DNA of 32,922 nucleotides from Kiritimatiellia bacterium (GTDB taxonomy: Bacteria > Verrucomicrobiota > Kiritimatiellia > CAIQIC01 > Lenti-01), in the NCBI GenBank assembly GCA_017458625.1, contig JAFTAH010000082.1, forward strand, positions 1-32,922, read 5' to 3'. Below are positions 3,761-31,593 of the stretch, in pieces (within the stretch, counting starts at the first letter, position 1; every line of letters begins with the position of its first letter). The position numbers and the translations under genes were made by a program. Below the pieces are notes generated by a model. That model did not search any database, was not told the DNA's origin, and was given only the letters and a program-made list of their open reading frames with translations.

Positions 3761-6067
3761 TCAGCGATGCCGCCGCGCCCGCTTGCGTTGCGCGCCCTTG
3801 CCCGGAGCTGGCTTCCCCGCCTGCTTGCGCGATGCGGAAGGCCGGTCCCGGCGGCCACCGCCCAGGGCGGACGGCAAGCCGAAGTCGACCCGCCGCTTGT
3901 CCACGTCGACGGCGGCCAGCACGACCGAGAGGGGCTGTCCGAGGCGATAGGCGGTGCCCCGGGCCGAGGTGGCGACATAGTCGTCCGGTGCCAGCGTGTA
4001 GCGCTCCTTGCCCATGGCCGCGTAGGGCAGCAGCCCCTGTTGCAGGGAATCGGCCAGTTCGACCACCAGCCCCTTGGGATTGAGCGAGACGATGGTTCCG
4101 GCCATGGCGGTGCGGTCGCCCCGCCGCAACATGTTGGCATAGTAGCGGATGCGCTTGACCTGGAGCGACTGCATCTCCATCTCGGCCGCCTCGCGCTCGC
4201 GGTCGGCGCAGTGCAGGGCCATGGCGTCGATGTCGGCCTTCGAATAGGGGCATTTGCGCCCTTCCTCGAGCGCGCCGAGCAGCCGGTGCACGACCAGATC
4301 CGGATAGCGGCGGATGGGCGACGTGAAGTGCGCGTAGTGGGCAAATCCAAGCCCGAAATGCGGCGCGGCCACGCTGGTGTAGGTGGCCCGCTGGAGGTTG
4401 CGCAGCAGCGTCAACGTGATCATGTACTGTCCAGGCGTGCCGATGGCTTCGCGGGCGATGCGGTTGAGCTCGGCGGGCTCGCGCGACCGGAGGGTGACGC
4501 CCAACGCACGCAGCTCTCCCTCCATGCGGGCCCATTGCTCCGGTTCCGGCTCGTCGTGGATGCGGTAGACGCACGGCCAGTTCGCGGCGTAGAGCTTCTC
4601 GGCGACTGCCCGGTTGGCCGCCAGCATGCACTCCTCGATGAGCGCGTACGACTCCGCCGCGCCGCGCTTGACGAAACGCACGGGCTCGCCATCGGCATCC
4701 AGCACGCACCGCACCTCGGGCAACGCAAAATCAAGCGCCCCTTCGGCAAAGCGACGCGCCCGGAGCCGTCCGGCCAGCGCCCGCAACGCGGTCAGGCTCG
4801 CCCGGATTTCCGGCGAGTCAGCCGCGGCCGGCAGCGCCTGTCCCCCGAAAAAAGCCTCCACCTGTCCATAGGACAGGCACGCCCGCGAGCGGATGACGGA
4901 CCGGAACGTCCGGACGGCGACAGGCCGCGCCTCGGCATCGAAATCGATCTCGACGGTATGCGTCAAATGGTCCTCGCGGGGCTGGAGCGAACACGTCCGG
5001 ACCGTCAGCTCCTCGGGGAGCATGCGGATGACGCGATCCACCAGATAGGCGCTGTTGCCCCGCTCGCAGGCTTCCGCATCGATGGCACCGCCCGGCACGA
5101 CAAACGCCGCCACGTCCGCGATATGCACGCCCAGATGCCACCCGCCTTCCGCCCGAGCGGCAATGCTGACGGCATCGTCGTAGTCGCGGGCATCGGCCGG
5201 GTCGATGGTCAAGACGCAACGGTCGCGCAAGTCGCGCCGGGAGGGGGCATGTTCGCCCCTGCGGGCGGCCTGCCCTGCCCGAATGGCGGCGGCTTCGGCC
5301 TCCACGGCGGGCGGGAACTGACTGCTCCGGGCATGATCCTGCAAAATGGCGGCCACCTCGATGCGGGCATCGTCCGGGTCGCCCAGGTCGGCCACGAAAC
5401 GTCCCCCGACGGGATGCCCTTCCCGCACCTCCTCCGGCGTCTGGAGCGCAATGGCGACGAGCCGACCCGCATAGGGCCGCATGGCCGCCGGGGCATCCTC
5501 CAGCCGGATGTTCTGCCGGATGAGCGGATCCTTCGGCACCACATACGCGTAGTTCTCGCCAAAAAGCCGCAAGACGCCGACGAGCCGCTTGCGCCGCCGC
5601 TCCAGAATGCGCACCACATGGCCGGGCCGCATCTCCTCGCGGGCCGGCGCCCCCGCGTCCTCGAACATCCGGTGGCGACTGGCGGGAACGGCGTCTGCGA
5701 CGGCCTCCACGCGATCGCCATGCAACACCCACTCGGCCTCGCGCGGATTCAGGGCCAGCGCGCCCTCCGCGCCCCGGTCGGGCATGAACCAGCAGGTCCC
5801 GTTGATGCGTACGCGGAAAATGCCGCGCACGGGCACGCCTTCGATGGCGCTAGGCGCCGCCCGGCCCGCCAGCTGCCAGCGCCGGTCTGCGCCGCAGGTG
5901 ACGCTCCCCTCCTCCCGCAGCTCCTCCAGCGCGCGCCGGAGCAGATGATGCCCGGCCCCGCGAACCTTCAGCGCGGCGGCGATTTCCGAGGCACGAAGCG
6001 GCACCTGTCCCGACTCCGCCAAAAACGACTTCGCCTGAAGCTTCAGGCCTTCCGTTGACTCTTTCAT
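3761..6067 (-). CDS. rnr: Ribonuclease R (3'-5' exoribonuclease, RNB family)
   Basis: A 768-residue processive 3'-5' exoribonuclease that degrades structured RNA. Order: an N-terminal winged-helix segment (about 1-70), two cold-shock/OB domains (about 75-235), the RNB catalytic domain (about 285-620), a C-terminal S1 domain (about 655-740) and a basic Lys/Arg tail. The active-site string TIDPADARDYDDAVS covers residues 287-301 and supplies the four Mg2+-binding aspartates D289, D295, D297 and D298. HFTSPIRRYPDL further on is the other RNB hallmark. The basic tail is typical of RNase R rather than RNase II. The start is supported by an AAAGGAAG ribosome-binding site. The complementary frame is open almost end to end, but it is a mirror of the skewed codon use and not a gene. 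Confidence 0.96.
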   Translation of the reverse strand: MKESTEGLKLQAKSFLAESGQVPLRASEIAAALKVRGAGHHLLRRALEELREEGSVTCGADRRWQLAGRAAPSAIEGVPVRGIFRVRINGTCWFMPDRGAEGALALNPREAEWVLHGDRVEAVADAVPASRHRMFEDAGAPAREEMRPGHVVRILERRRKRLVGVLRLFGENYAYVVPKDPLIRQNIRLEDAPAAMRPYAGRLVAIALQTPEEVREGHPVGGRFVADLGDPDDARIEVAAILQDHARSSQFPPAVEAEAAAIRAGQAARRGEHAPSRRDLRDRCVLTIDPADARDYDDAVSIAARAEGGWHLGVHIADVAAFVVPGGAIDAEACERGNSAYLVDRVIRMLPEELTVRTCSLQPREDHLTHTVEIDFDAEARPVAVRTFRSVIRSRACLSYGQVEAFFGGQALPAAADSPEIRASLTALRALAGRLRARRFAEGALDFALPEVRCVLDADGEPVRFVKRGAAESYALIEECMLAANRAVAEKLYAANWPCVYRIHDEPEPEQWARMEGELRALGVTLRSREPAELNRIAREAIGTPGQYMITLTLLRNLQRATYTSVAAPHFGLGFAHYAHFTSPIRRYPDLVVHRLLGALEEGRKCPYSKADIDAMALHCADREREAAEMEMQSLQVKRIRYYANMLRRGDRTAMAGTIVSLNPKGLVVELADSLQQGLLPYAAMGKERYTLAPDDYVATSARGTAYRLGQPLSVVLAAVDVDKRRVDFGLPSALGGGRRDRPSASRKQAGKPAPGKGAQRKRARRHR

Positions 6068-15385: not shown

Positions 15386-15971
15386 AATCGAGTAGGGGGA
15401 GGTTGCCCTCCCCCTCTCACACCACGGGGCGTGCCTTTTATGGCACCGCGCGGTTTCAAACAGTCAGGCATCTCCTCAACGGAGTTCCCGTGCCTCCGAA
15501 CCTGCATTCCGACACGGGCTTTTGGGAACCTTGCGCCGCGCTCCTGCGGCCTTCCACTCCGCCGCCCTGCGCCACCGGCAAGCCTCCGACCGCCGCCCAG
15601 TCGAACTTCAACTGGCCGCGGACTTCGCTTTTCCTTCTCTTCCTGCCCATGCTGTTTGCTTTCTTCGGCTTTGTTTGATTCGGCCCTTCGCCGCCAAGGA
15701 CGGCTACTATGGCCTCTGCTGACTCCTGCCCGCCCATCGCGTCGCGTCACCGCCACGCTTGGCCCTTTCGGGCGGGACGGACAGGTCTCCGGGAATAAGG
15801 CGCATCTCTTTCCTCCGGCGGGACGCGGATTTACCACCCTGCTACGGTCAGGCTTGGGGCTTTGTCTTGTAGGGCAGACTTGCCCGCAGGTAGGCCTTCG
15901 TATCCGCTTCCTGTTCGTGTCCTCCGGATTTCGCGTCCGACTTCCTTCAGCCGCGCCCTCGCGGGCGCAAC
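15386..15971 (-). mobile_element. Group II intron remnant lacking its reverse transcriptase
   Basis: Read on the minus strand, this roughly 585-base segment has the two ends of a bacterial group II intron and almost nothing between. The 5' part starts near 15971 with GTTGCGCCC (canonical GUGCG appears to carry an extra T). It contains domain I phrases that I recognise from such introns, such as GCGGGCAAGTCTGCCCTAC, GCCGGAGGAAAG and GTCAGCAGAGGCCATAGTAG. The 3' part has a 34-base domain V and a domain VI with a bulged A, ending CTACTCGATT. Of the roughly 400-600-codon maturase only a short start remains, near 15737-15590, reading QESAEAIVAV. It is antisense to the upstream hydrogenase genes. 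Without the maturase it cannot move by itself but might be mobilised in trans. Confidence 0.8.
15390..15454 (-). ncRNA. Group II intron domains V and VI
   Basis: Domain V is 15421-15454 on the minus strand. It has the canonical 34 nucleotides: ACCGC pairs with GTGGT, GTGCC with GGCAC, and a bulge lies on the 3' side. A CGC takes the place of the usual AGC catalytic triad, as in some bacterial classes. Domain VI is 15390-15418: GAG and AGGGGGAGG pair with CCTCCCCCT and CTC, leaving one unpaired A as branch point, seven to eight bases from the 3' end. Confidence 0.8.
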
Positions 15972-16104: not shown

Positions 16105-16623
16105 TTATTCCGCCGCAGGAACCTCAGAAGCGGCAGCGGCCTCCTTGGCGGCTTCCTTGGCGGCCTTGCGGGCCTCGCGCTTGGCCTTCAGCTCGGCCTT
16201 GCGGGCCTCCTTGGCGGCTTCGGCGGGGTCAATGGCCTCGGCAGGCGCAGCCGGCTCGTCGGCGGGCTGCATTTCAACCCGCGAAGCCTTCCGGGCACGC
16301 CGCTTGAAGTGCCTGTCTCCGGCCTTCTCCTCGCAGCAAGGGGCCTTCTTCTCGCAGCAGGGCTTCTGTTCCTTGCAGCAGGGTTTCTGATCCTTGCAGC
16401 AGGGCTTCTGATCCTTGCAGCAGGGTTTCCCCTCCTGGCAACAGGCCTTCTGTTCCTTGCAGCAGGGCTTCTCGGCCTTGCAGCAGTCCTTCGGGGCCTT
16501 CTTGCAGGGCTTTTCGCAGGCGGGCTTGTCGCACGCCTTGGCCTTGCCGTCAGGGCAGGTGGAGCAGCAGCCGGACAGCACGGCGGCGACCAGCAGCGCG
16601 ATAAGCAGATAGAATTTCTTCAT
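16105..16623 (-). CDS. Lipoprotein with Cys-Cys heptad repeats
   Basis: A 172-residue predicted lipoprotein of unknown function. Residues 1-18 are a lipoprotein signal peptide with lipobox VLSG-C19. Residues 45-100 hold eight Cys-Cys pairs at 47, 54, 61, 68, 75, 82, 89 and 96, an exact seven-residue period with consensus KPCCK(D/E)Q. Further cysteines lie at 20, 23, 31, 36 and 40. The C-terminal 50 residues are Lys/Ala/Glu-rich and should form a charged helix. The start has a GAAAGGA ribosome-binding site, and the gene has its own terminator, so it is a real single-gene unit. A periplasmic metal-binding protein or a disulfide-cross-linked wall component would both fit. I know no named family with this repeat. 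Confidence 0.85.
   Translation of the reverse strand: MKKFYLLIALLVAAVLSGCCSTCPDGKAKACDKPACEKPCKKAPKDCCKAEKPCCKEQKACCQEGKPCCKDQKPCCKDQKPCCKEQKPCCEKKAPCCEEKAGDRHFKRRARKASRVEMQPADEPAAPAEAIDPAEAAKEARKAELKAKREARKAAKEAAKEAAAASEVPAAE
16324..16491 (-). repeat. 21-bp coding tandem repeat in the lipoprotein gene
   Basis: Eight units of 21 bases encode the Cys-Cys heptads. The central units differ by only a few bases, so the array looks recently expanded. Copy-number change would keep the reading frame. Confidence 0.85.
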
Positions 16624-16850
16624 GGGTGTCCTTTCGTTTGGATGTCTCCATTCTACCCGAGAATGGGCTGAACGCAATTCCCAAAATCGCCCCTGCGGAC
16701 GTGCGGCCAATTGCCCCCGTCCCGGGAACTCACGCCACACAGAAAGATGCCGCGAATCCCTTTTATTTTTCGTAAACTCACGCCCTTTTCCCGCTCCATC
16801 CGACCGTCGACCGTCGACTGTCGACTGTCACCCCCTGCGCGTCATTCGTC
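16624..16850. other. Spacer between the lipoprotein gene and the rho control region
   Basis: No gene is supported here. The lipoprotein ribosome-binding site is at its left edge. CGTAAACTCAC at 16771-16781 recurs inverted at 21338-21348, beyond the rho-VWA unit. A heptamer array follows at 16802-16829. Confidence 0.6.
16802..16829. repeat. Heptamer tandem repeat upstream of rho
   Basis: GACCGTC occurs twice, then GACTGTC twice, with no gaps. A related phrase, CCGACCGTTGGCTGCCGACTG, lies in the spacer after the VWA gene near 21298-21318. Confidence 0.8.
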
Positions 16851-16851
16851 C

Positions 16852-16942
16852 TTTTTCCAGACAATGGAAGTGTGTTTCGCCACTTTTCCAGACAATGGAA
16901 ACATGTTTCAGCCATTTTTCCAGACAATGGAAGTATGTTTTC
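16852..16942. promoter_or_regulatory. Three phased palindromic repeats upstream of rho
   Basis: TTTTCCAGACAATGGAA occurs three times, with CCAGAC starting at 16857, 16888 and 16920, that is 31 and 32 bases apart. Each unit is itself an inverted repeat, TTCCA and TGGAA around GACAA (TTTCCA and TGGAAA in the middle copy). Three helical turns are about 31.5 bp, so all three would face the same side of the helix. The last ends 26 bases before the -35 box of the rho promoter, the position of an activator array. Confidence 0.75.
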
Positions 16943-28717: not shown

Positions 28718-28741
28718 AATTCTGTAATTCTGTAATTCTGT
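28718..28741. repeat. Octamer tandem repeat AATTCTGT before larE-bioB
   Basis: Three perfect copies of AATTCTGT, with a fourth alone at 28807-28814. The last copy runs into TGTGATAAT (28739-28747), an extended -10-like sequence, so this AT-rich patch may hold the promoter of the fusion gene. The -35 box is unclear. No ribosome-binding site precedes the start. Confidence 0.65.
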
Positions 28742-28823
28742 GATAATTCTCCTCTCCCTCTTCCCCGCCTGCCACATCCCCTTCCTCCCCCATATCAAAA
28801 CCCTGTAATTCTGTTAAAACATA

Positions 28824-30599
28824 ATGCCCCTCCCCCCTCTTGCCCCCCTCTCCTCCCTCCTCCGCTCCTTCGGCTCCGTGGCCATTGCCTATTCCGGCGG
28901 CACGGACTCGACCTTCCTCCTCAAGGTCGCGCATGACGTCCTCGGCGAAAAATGCGTCGCCTTCATGGTCGTTTCGCCCTTCCTGCCGCGCCGCGACCTT
29001 GCCTCCGCCCGCGCCTGGTGCCAAGCGGAAGGCATTCGGCTCGTCGAACTCGCCGCCAATCCCACCACGGATCCGCAGGTCGCCGTCAATCCCCCGGACC
29101 GCTGCTACTTCTGCAAAAAAAACGACTTTTCCCTTATCCTCGAGGCCGCCCGCAAGGAATCCCTCGCCGTGGTCTGCGACGGCACCAACCTCGACGACCT
29201 CGCCGACTACCGCCCTGGGGCGCAGGCGGTAGCCGAACTCGGCGTGCGCAGCCCGCTTCGGGAATGCGGCCTTGCCAAGGCCGCCATCCGCGACCTCTCG
29301 CGCCAGCTCGGACTCCCCACCTGGAACCAGCCGGCCGCCGCCTGCCTCGCCTCCCGCATCCCCTACGGCGAAACCATCACCCCTGAAAAGCTCCGCCTCG
29401 TCGACGCCGCGGAAGATATCCTCCAGGCTGCCGGTTTTCGCCAAGTCCGCGTCCGCCTCCACGGCGGCAAGCTGGCCCGCATCGAGGTCCCTCCCGCCGA
29501 CATGTCCCGCCTGCTTGCCCGGCGCGAAGACCTCCTCGCCCAACTCTCCGCCCTCGGCCTGCCCTACGTCTCGCTCGACCTCGAGGGCTACCGCATGGGC
29601 AGCCTGAACGAAGCCCTCCTCTCCCCCGCCGCCGCCGCCGAGCGAATCCTTGGCGGAGGTGCCCTCACCCCTGCCGAGGCCCTCCACCTTCTCCGCCACG
29701 CGCCGCGCCCGGACCTCTACGAGGCGGCCCACCGCGTCACCGTCGCCCTCGCCAGCCGCCACTTCGACTTCTGCGCCATCGTCAATGCCCGCTGCGGCCA
29801 ATGCGCCGAGGACTGCAAATGGTGCGCCCAGAGCGCCCGCTGGCACACGGGCGTCGAAACGTTCGGCTGGATAGGCACGGAGGCCTGCGTGCAAGCGGCC
29901 CGGAAAGCTGAGGCGACAGGCGCCGAGCGCATCGGCATCGTCACCTCGGGCCGCGCCCAGACCCCGCGCCAGCTCGACGAACTCTGCGATGCCCTCCGCG
30001 AAATGAAAAAGCGCACCCGCATCCACCTCTGCGGCTCGCTCGGCCTGCTCCAGGAGGACGAGCTCCGTCGCCTCCGCGAGGCCGGACTCGAATCGCTCCA
30101 CTGCAACCTTGAGACCGCCCCCTCGCACTTCCGCGACCTCTGCACCACCCACCTCCTGGCCGACAAGCTTGCCACCCTCCGCGCCGCCCGCCGCGTCGGC
30201 CTGGACATCTGCTGTGGCGGCATCATCGGCATGGGCGAGACGGACGCACAGCTCGTCGAATTCGCCTTCGCCCTCGCGGAACTCCAGCCCCGTTCGATTC
30301 CGGTGAACATCCTGCGCCCCATCCCCGGCACCCCGCTCGGCAACTCGCCCGTCCTTGCCGAAGCCCGCATTCTCGACGCCATCGCCCTCCTCCGCCTCGT
30401 CAACCCGCATGCCGCTCTCCGCTTCGCGGGAGGCCGCACCCAGCTCTCCGACGACGCCGCCCGCCGTGCCGTCTACATCGGCATCAACGCCGGCATCTCC
30501 GGCCCGATGCTCACGACGCCCGGCCCGGCCTACGACGACGACCGCGCCCTCGCCCAGGAAGCCGGCTACGAAGTCTGCCAGCACCTCCGCCCCGAATAG
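28824..30599 (+). CDS. LarE-type sulfur transferase fused to biotin synthase (BioB)
   Basis: A 591-residue two-enzyme protein. Residues 1-265 are a LarE family PP-loop ATPase: the loop YSGGTDST at 23-30, C94 and C97 in DRCYFCKK, CDGTNLDDLADYRPG at 118-132, and C174 in ACLASRIPYG. LarE donates sulfur to the nickel-pincer cofactor. Residues 270-591 are a radical SAM biotin synthase with the SAM cluster at C327, C331 and C334 (CAEDCKWC), CCGGIIGMGE at 463-472 and LRFAGGRTQ near the end. The cysteine equivalent to E. coli C97 is Gly371, whereas C403 and C463 are kept and C427 is additional (HCNLETAP). The linker is short and no in-frame start codon with a ribosome-binding site permits separate BioB. 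The CDF gene begins two bases after its stop. No other bio or lar gene is visible. Confidence 0.93.
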   Translation: MPLPPLAPLSSLLRSFGSVAIAYSGGTDSTFLLKVAHDVLGEKCVAFMVVSPFLPRRDLASARAWCQAEGIRLVELAANPTTDPQVAVNPPDRCYFCKKNDFSLILEAARKESLAVVCDGTNLDDLADYRPGAQAVAELGVRSPLRECGLAKAAIRDLSRQLGLPTWNQPAAACLASRIPYGETITPEKLRLVDAAEDILQAAGFRQVRVRLHGGKLARIEVPPADMSRLLARREDLLAQLSALGLPYVSLDLEGYRMGSLNEALLSPAAAAERILGGGALTPAEALHLLRHAPRPDLYEAAHRVTVALASRHFDFCAIVNARCGQCAEDCKWCAQSARWHTGVETFGWIGTEACVQAARKAEATGAERIGIVTSGRAQTPRQLDELCDALREMKKRTRIHLCGSLGLLQEDELRRLREAGLESLHCNLETAPSHFRDLCTTHLLADKLATLRAARRVGLDICCGGIIGMGETDAQLVEFAFALAELQPRSIPVNILRPIPGTPLGNSPVLAEARILDAIALLRLVNPHAALRFAGGRTQLSDDAARRAVYIGINAGISGPMLTTPGPAYDDDRALAQEAGYEVCQHLRPE

Positions 30600-30600
30600 C

Positions 30601-31593
30601 ATGACCCGTCTTGCCACAACCGACAATGGTTCCGATGTCCGCCGCGCCACCCTCGCCGGACTCGTCGCCAACCTCCTGCTGGCCGCCCTCAAGTTCGTTG
30701 TCGGCGCGCTCACTCGCTCCCAGGCCCTGGTCGCGGATGCCGCCCACAGTGCCTCCGACCTCGCCACCGATGTCGCCATCCTTGCCGGTTCCCATTTCTG
30801 GAATGCCCCGCCCGATGCCAACCATCCCCATGGCCATCGTCGCATCGAAACCCTGGTCTCCCTAGGCATTGGCCTGGCCGTGGTCGCCGTGGGTGTCGGC
30901 CTCGCCCTCGAGGCCTTGCGCGCCCTTTGGACTGCCCGCACCACGGCGCCCGCCGTGCCGCCGTCGCTCCCGGTCGCCCTCTGCGCCCTGGCCTCGCTCG
31001 CGGTCAAGGAGGCCCTCTTCCACTTCACCCGCCACGCCGCCCGCGTCGTCCGCAGCCCGGCCCTCGAGGCCAACGCCTGGCACCACCGCAGCGACGCCAT
31101 CAGCTCCATCTCCGTCCTGCTGGCCGCTCTCCTCTCGCAATTCTTCCCGTCGTTCCCGCATTTCGACACCCTTGGCGCCCTGATCGTCTCTGTGCTTATC
31201 ATCCGCTCCGGACTCGCCATCGTCCGCCCGGAACTCGGCGAAGCCGCCGACGAGGGGGCCCCGCCCGAAACCGTCCGACAGCTCCTCGGGCTCGCCAACG
31301 CCGTCCCCGGCGTCCTGAGCATCCACGACTTCCGCACCCGCCGCATCGGCTCCGACCTGCAGGTCACCCTCCACATTGTCGTCAACCCTGACCTCACCCT
31401 CCGCGAAGCCCACGACCTCTCCGAGCGCGTCGAACACGTTCTCCTCAGCGCCAACCTCCACGTCATCGACGCCCTCGTCCACGTCGACCCCTTCTCCCCC
31501 GAAAAAGCCGGCCCCCCTGCCCCCTCTCCGCATCTGCCGGAGCGCGATGGGCAAGCCACAGGGAAAAACAGGGCGCAGGACTGCCCTCGTTAG
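30601..31593 (+). CDS. CDF family divalent-cation efflux transporter
   Basis: A 330-residue inner-membrane metal/proton antiporter with six predicted helices and a C-terminal cytoplasmic domain. The transport site is formed by DAAHSASD in helix 2 and HHRSDA in helix 5, each with the H-x3-D spacing of the family. Helix 6 is followed by a ferredoxin-like regulatory domain (about 215-300). The last 30 residues are a charged tail. HPHGHRRIE in the loop after helix 2 adds histidines. Substrates in the family include Zn, Fe, Co, Ni and Mn; the sequence does not decide. Its start lies two bases after the larE-bioB stop, so the two are coupled, which makes nickel or iron plausible. Confidence 0.93.
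   Translation: MTRLATTDNGSDVRRATLAGLVANLLLAALKFVVGALTRSQALVADAAHSASDLATDVAILAGSHFWNAPPDANHPHGHRRIETLVSLGIGLAVVAVGVGLALEALRALWTARTTAPAVPPSLPVALCALASLAVKEALFHFTRHAARVVRSPALEANAWHHRSDAISSISVLLAALLSQFFPSFPHFDTLGALIVSVLIIRSGLAIVRPELGEAADEGAPPETVRQLLGLANAVPGVLSIHDFRTRRIGSDLQVTLHIVVNPDLTLREAHDLSERVEHVLLSANLHVIDALVHVDPFSPEKAGPPAPSPHLPERDGQATGKNRAQDCPR

Follow-up and report, generated by a model that had tools for sequence, protein, structure and literature searches.

How biotin synthase regains its sulfur has been asked for a long time, and the matter is a bottleneck when microbes are used to produce biotin. The window (the whole stretch of DNA that was analyzed, 32,922 nucleotides) comes from an uncultured anaerobic bacterium and encodes, in one protein, a complete three-cysteine LarE sulfur insertase and a complete Type II biotin synthase. 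What does such a protein do, and why are its two halves joined? Both families are known; their union appears to be a new domain architecture that recurs within one class of uncultured anaerobes.

The fused open reading frame

The open reading frame runs from ATG to TAG, encodes 591 amino acids plus the stop, and contains no internal stop codon. An earlier note on this DNA had read it as a fusion with both halves intact, and the NCBIfam profiles agree: TIGR00268 (LarE) scores 313 bits on residues 8–262 against a curated cut-off of 150, and TIGR00433 (bioB) scores 343 bits on residues 281–582 against a cut-off of 225. Among PDB sequences the protein is matched best by the Type II biotin synthases 8vcw and 8vdw and by LarE structures of L. 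plantarum. The features of the locus are as follows.

28824–30599, plus strand: fused larE-bioB coding sequence (open reading frame and NCBIfam profiles)
28845–29609, plus strand: LarE half, residues 8–262 (TIGR00268, 313 bits; phmmer matches to 5udq and 6b2o over residues 7–268)
28893–28910, plus strand: PP-loop SGGTDS, residues 24–29, ATP site (residue comparison)
29103–29114, plus strand: CxxC of the LarE cluster, C94 and C97 (kept in the LarE rows compared)
29343–29345, plus strand: third LarE cluster cysteine, C174 (LarE row comparison)
29595–29624, plus strand: junction or linker, residues 258–267 (pLDDT below 50 at 258–265)
29625–30596, plus strand: Type II biotin synthase half, residues 268–591 (TIGR00433, PF04055, PF06968; best PDB matches 8vcw and 8vdw)
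29772–29774, plus strand: C317, Type II-specific cysteine and probable auxiliary cluster ligand (69 of 69 Type II-like rows, 0 of 27 Type I rows)
29802–29825, plus strand: radical SAM motif C327xxxC331xxC334 (BioB alignment)
30030–30032, plus strand: C403, equivalent of E. coli BioB C128 (BioB alignment)
30210–30212, plus strand: C463, equivalent of E. coli BioB C188 (BioB alignment)
30420–30422, plus strand: R533, equivalent of E. coli BioB R260 (BioB alignment)
30601–31593, plus strand: cation diffusion facilitator, the next gene (PF01545, PF16916), starting 1 base past the fusion stop

Third-position GC keeps its phase through the junction between the halves, and in the alternative frames LarE would read 83–96 nonsense codons into bioB before reaching a stop, which together make a simple indel artifact unlikely. 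An assembly error joining two genes, the concern raised when the fusion was first noticed, is rejected on this frame analysis and on the occurrence of the same architecture in another genome of the class (G216, described below). M258 has an ATG preceded by GAGG, from which BioB alone might also be started. Neither a promoter-like site nor an Rfam element was found at the fusion.

AlphaFold predicts both domains of the fusion confidently (mean pLDDT 92), with low confidence at the linker between them, residues 258–265; with this linker and a pTM of 0.65, the relative placement of the two clusters is not fixed by the model. Foldseek returned 8vcw and 8vdw as the top matches to the model, then 1r30, then LarE structures.

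The cation diffusion facilitator gene is probably in the same operon as the fusion, and a similar-looking protein is encoded two genes upstream of larE-bioB in L088 (L088:3845-4957). The 120-bp gap upstream of the fusion holds three tandem copies of AATTCTGT and one partial copy (28718–28741, 28799–28814), where none are expected in shuffles. Elsewhere in the window, on the minus strand, fragments of Group II intron domains (Rfam RF02001, RF01998) lie at 15683–15968, just downstream of the gene for the NADH dehydrogenase 30-kDa subunit, with no reverse-transcriptase gene noticed alongside. A 21/42-bp repeat array at 16354–16492, also on the minus strand, falls within an apparent small cysteine- and lysine-rich protein. 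In the family of the window, intergenic repeats are built around TTTTCCA..TGGAAA, whose frame reads ..FPIIGK.. or ..NHWK..; they occur at 16845–16940 here, at L078:7137-7739, and upstream of bioB in L081 and L082; these stretches look like a dispersed palindromic repeat.

The LarE half

The LarE half carries the SGGxDS PP-loop and the three cysteines C94, C97, and C174, as had been noted for the cluster-bearing form of the enzyme. Its S177, R209, and R211 correspond to Ser180, Arg212, and Arg214, which in L. plantarum LarE are ligands of the P2CMN phosphate. Every ATP, cluster, and substrate-phosphate residue that was checked is kept in the fused LarE halves, and only a few conservative positions separate those of the window and G216 from 53 other LarEs. 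Repurposing of this half through loss of its substrate residues is ruled out, since all are conserved. Judged by its residues, it is most likely an enzyme of the [4Fe-4S]/[4Fe-5S] type, predicted to bind a cluster and to thiolate P2CMN.

The BioB half

Type II biotin synthase was reportedly the subject of work by Lachowicz et al. in 2024 (doi 10.1021/jacs.3c05481). Pfam recognizes radical SAM (PF04055) and BATS (PF06968) domains in the BioB half, and we assigned its type by aligning 96 biotin synthases. In this alignment no sequence has both a counterpart of the E. coli ligand C97 and one of C317 of the window, and these two cysteines divide it without overlap into 27 Type I and 69 Type II-like sequences, and the window falls with both solved Type II enzymes on the C317 side. 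A Type I assignment is ruled out because the position of C97, the [2Fe-2S]-cluster ligand, is occupied by G371. Equivalents of E. coli C128, C188, N153, N222, and R260 are all kept, and those of N153, D155 (Glu in Type II), N222, and R260 agree with the biotin synthases of solved structure.

The BioB half is, by these residues, a Type II biotin synthase of the [4Fe-5S] kind, and both the cluster and the conversion of dethiobiotin are predicted. Two reports (PMC11138216, PMC11099021) describe Type II BioB as an enzyme whose proposed sulfur source is the additional sulfide of a [4Fe-5S] cluster. The earlier note had supposed a BioB held back by cluster repair, as in the Type I enzyme of E. coli; that picture does not carry over as it stands to a Type II enzyme, while its more general expectation of a BioB drawing on an auxiliary cluster is supported, and a recurrent genetic link between larE and bioB was found as well.

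Recurrent fusions in the class

A search for the two-domain architecture across 346 genomes of the class, as proposed when the fusion was first noticed, recovered it more than once. G216, another metagenome-assembled genome of the class, encodes the same fusion with 63% identity over residues 7–590, and G242 encodes a further LarE-BioB fusion with 54% identity to that of the window. Inspection of gene neighborhoods added the fusion of G232 (L110:6537-8384), which joins the domains in reversed order, BioB-LarE, in one frame, with cysK 1.1 kb upstream. At E 1e-95, 388 evenly sampled genomes of the phylum gave no match beyond the class, and among the loci fetched from the named genome collection larE and bioB occurred together in the Kiritimatiellae record only.

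On the LarE tree, the halves from the window and G216 pair as sisters (support 100/99) in a lineage of their own, known here solely as fusions. Those of G242 and G232 belong elsewhere, in the ordinary LarE clade of the class; this clade is well supported and holds LarEs linked to bioB as well as LarEs linked to larC. Because the fused LarE halves occupy two places on the tree, a single origin for all fusions is not supported, and the domains must have been joined at least twice and probably three times. On the BioB tree, a grouping of the window with G216 is neither recovered nor rejected (p-AU 0.4). Of the fusions, that of G242 is the least protected against a sequencing indel, since its BioB shares 92% identity with the BioB of a two-gene relative and still has a Met at its start.

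Linkage to bioB and to sulfur genes

Fusion is one end of a wider association. Among the 100 Type II bioB loci inspected, several of which end at contig edges, larE lies within 400 bp of bioB on the same strand in 28, often overlapping it and in four cases fused to it; 3 further loci have larE within 2 kb. The two genes overlap in relatives L117, L127, and L026; in L026 (JAFWPM010000195.1, a Kiritimatiellae metagenome-assembled genome from sheep) bioB begins with an ATG at 5830, before the larE stop has ended at 5846. Two genomes, G159 and G184, hold two larE-bioB pairs apiece.

The neighborhood also includes genes of sulfur supply. G150 has the order nifU-nifS-larE-bioB, and in G151 bioB and larE-nifU-nifS lie on one contig, 5.6 kb apart. 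A cysK gene lies within 3.5 kb of bioB in 20 of the 100 loci; cysK also occurs near bioB in places that lack larE. NCBIfam models confirm cysK in G216 and G232, NifU in G150, LarB in G000 (the genome of the window), G216, and G242, and the bioD and bioA genes beside stand-alone bioB; NifS of G150, at 521 bits, falls just short of its cut-off of 531.

Nine genomes carry two Type II bioB copies (G159, G182, G183, G184, G203, G204, G206, G218, and G224). In several relatives hydE, which encodes a radical SAM hydrogenase maturase, directly adjoins bioB; it is confirmed at L134:4484-5587 (TIGR03956, 329 bits), and hydE-like N-termini occur at L101:1579-2649, L135:4708-5787, and L129:2006-3076.

LarE follows LarC

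Does the class keep LarE for biotin synthesis or for the nickel-pincer nucleotide (NPN)? LarC, which acts in NPN synthesis, turned up in 35 of 40 genomes, and LarA homologues scored above the cut-off in 19 of 24. When the 52 genomes with Type II BioB are sorted by their Lar proteins, 33 have both LarE and LarC, 15 have neither, 3 have LarE alone (one a fragment), and 1 has LarC alone, an association between LarE and LarC with a Fisher p of 2.7e-9, uncorrected for relatedness. The presence of LarE tracks LarC rather than BioB. One of the 15 genomes that have Type II BioB and neither Lar protein, G004, is 100% complete, and the idea that every Type II BioB requires LarE is ruled out by this group. 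That LarE is unrelated to NPN in the class is not supported either, given its co-occurrence with LarC and the LarA homologues. In some genomes larE sits beside larC and in others beside bioB, and both sorts are mixed on the tree.

Whether the fused genomes carry a separate larE had also been asked, and they differ. G216, G242, and G232 (64, 89, and 75% complete) showed no LarE besides the fused one; their larC is on another contig, with larB beside it in G216 and G242. G000, which is 80% complete, has a second, ordinary LarE on contig C18, 89% identical to a bioB-linked relative, as well as larB-larC on contig C39; no LarA was found in it. With this second LarE and with no LarA detected, NPN synthesis in G000 does not obviously depend on the fused LarE.

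Biotin context

No BioA, BioD, or BioF was detected in G000, G004, G008 (the last two of the same family as G000), or G151, although all four have a Type II BioB. A biotin product in G000 would consequently need external dethiobiotin, unless the genes were missed in this 80% complete genome, and we infer that uptake of dethiobiotin would explain their absence. G000 may instead make a different product, although nothing in the active-site residues hints at this. BirA is present in G000, which implies that biotin is used there. The other fused genomes, G216, G242, and G232, carry both bioA and bioD, which ties the architecture to biotin synthesis in these organisms.

Proposed function of the fusion

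We favor, with middling confidence, the proposal that the fusion is bifunctional, uniting two [4Fe-5S]-type sulfur insertases that draw on one common sulfur supply. The observations beneath it are the two complete domains, the recurrent linkage and fusion, and the genomic co-occurrence of LarE with LarC. Because the residues of the LarE half are kept and the fused copy is the sole LarE found in genomes that also bear larC, the simplest reading is that this half retains its own reaction: it would most likely still thiolate its usual kind of substrate, the NPN precursor P2CMN. The BioB half, judging from its family and ligand pattern, would make biotin by inserting into dethiobiotin the extra sulfide that its own [4Fe-5S] cluster carries. 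LarE of T. maritima takes sulfane sulfur directly from IscS onto its [4Fe-4S] cluster (PMC9283937), and a Type II BioB must presumably regain its extra sulfide in a like manner. We therefore suggest, from this chemistry and from the neighboring nifS, nifU, and cysK genes, that both halves may be reloaded with sulfide by one cysteine desulfurase or Fe-S supply, and that this common supply is probably the reason larE and bioB are kept adjacent, overlapping, or fused. The neighborhood would then tie NPN and biotin synthesis to a single sulfur source. Counting against the bifunctional proposal are the second LarE of G000, its undetected BioA, BioD, and BioF, and the double larE-bioB pairs of G159 and G184, which give these genomes LarE beyond what NPN would call for. 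The case for a shared sulfur donor is built on gene neighborhood, and the occurrence of cysK near bioB even where larE is absent counts against it.

A possible but doubtful alternative casts the LarE half as a dedicated sulfide donor, which would accept persulfide from NifS, build its [4Fe-5S] cluster, and hand the sulfide to the auxiliary cluster of BioB at each turnover. If this were true, the fusion would be a self-recharging biotin synthase capable of catalytic, multiple turnovers. Fusion in both domain orders, the nifU-nifS-larE-bioB operon, the double pairs just mentioned, and the membership of both halves in [4Fe-5S] families all speak for such a hand-over, and it is most plausible in the lineage of the window, where LarE forms a fusion-only group with G216, an extra, ordinary LarE could serve NPN, and larB-larC stands on another contig with no LarA detected. 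However, LarE follows LarC and not BioB; 15 genomes, one of them 100% complete, have a Type II BioB without any LarE; a mere relay would not need the ATP and substrate ligands, which are fully kept; and the model leaves the two domains undocked. The earlier note had inferred that LarE delivers sulfur to, or rebuilds, the BioB cluster; this is possible, but it is not favored by these data, nor by the three of four fused genomes in which the fused LarE is the sole copy found.

It is improbable that the radical SAM half no longer makes biotin and works with LarE on an unknown substrate in another sulfur-cofactor pathway, a reading put forward earlier. The undetected BioA, BioD, and BioF of four genomes would fit it, but the active-site equivalents match those of solved biotin synthases, stand-alone relatives adjoin bioD or bioA, and BirA indicates a use for biotin. 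Least probable is an assembly error, or a recent and functionless joining of overlapping frames with BioB also made from M258: such overlaps do occur in relatives and the internal ATG has GAGG upstream of it, but the other frames would burden LarE with a nonsense tail, and G216 has the same fusion at 63% identity with a sister LarE half.

Natural and recurrent as it is, the fusion offers a testable system in which to study the sulfide loading of [4Fe-5S] enzymes.

Comparison with known systems

No LarE-BioB fusion or gene pair was found by full-text literature searches whose coverage stopped short of the 2024 Type II BioB paper, in keeping with the first impression that no such fusion had been described. 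The LarE half shares with T. maritima LarE (PMC9283937) the PP-loop, the CxxC..C ligands, the substrate-phosphate residues, and the LarE fold. The T. maritima enzyme, a three-cysteine [4Fe-4S]/[4Fe-5S] sulfur insertase that works in NPN synthesis, stands alone, and the literature found reports neither its joining to biotin synthase nor its being encoded together with one. The BioB half is 39–40% identical to the Type II enzymes of B. obeum (8vcw) and V. parvula (8vdw), with TM scores of 0.93–0.94 by target length, and all three lack C97 and have C317, C403, C463, and the radical SAM motif; only the BioB of the window has an N-terminal LarE domain, which the two solved enzymes do not. A third parallel is offered by the larE-bioB pairs of Kiritimatiellae, such as the nifU-nifS-larE-bioB locus of JAFWPM010000195.1, in which the same proteins occur adjacent, in the same order and direction. 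There, larE and bioB are two separate, overlapping open reading frames, and their LarE belongs to another lineage of the family than that of the window.
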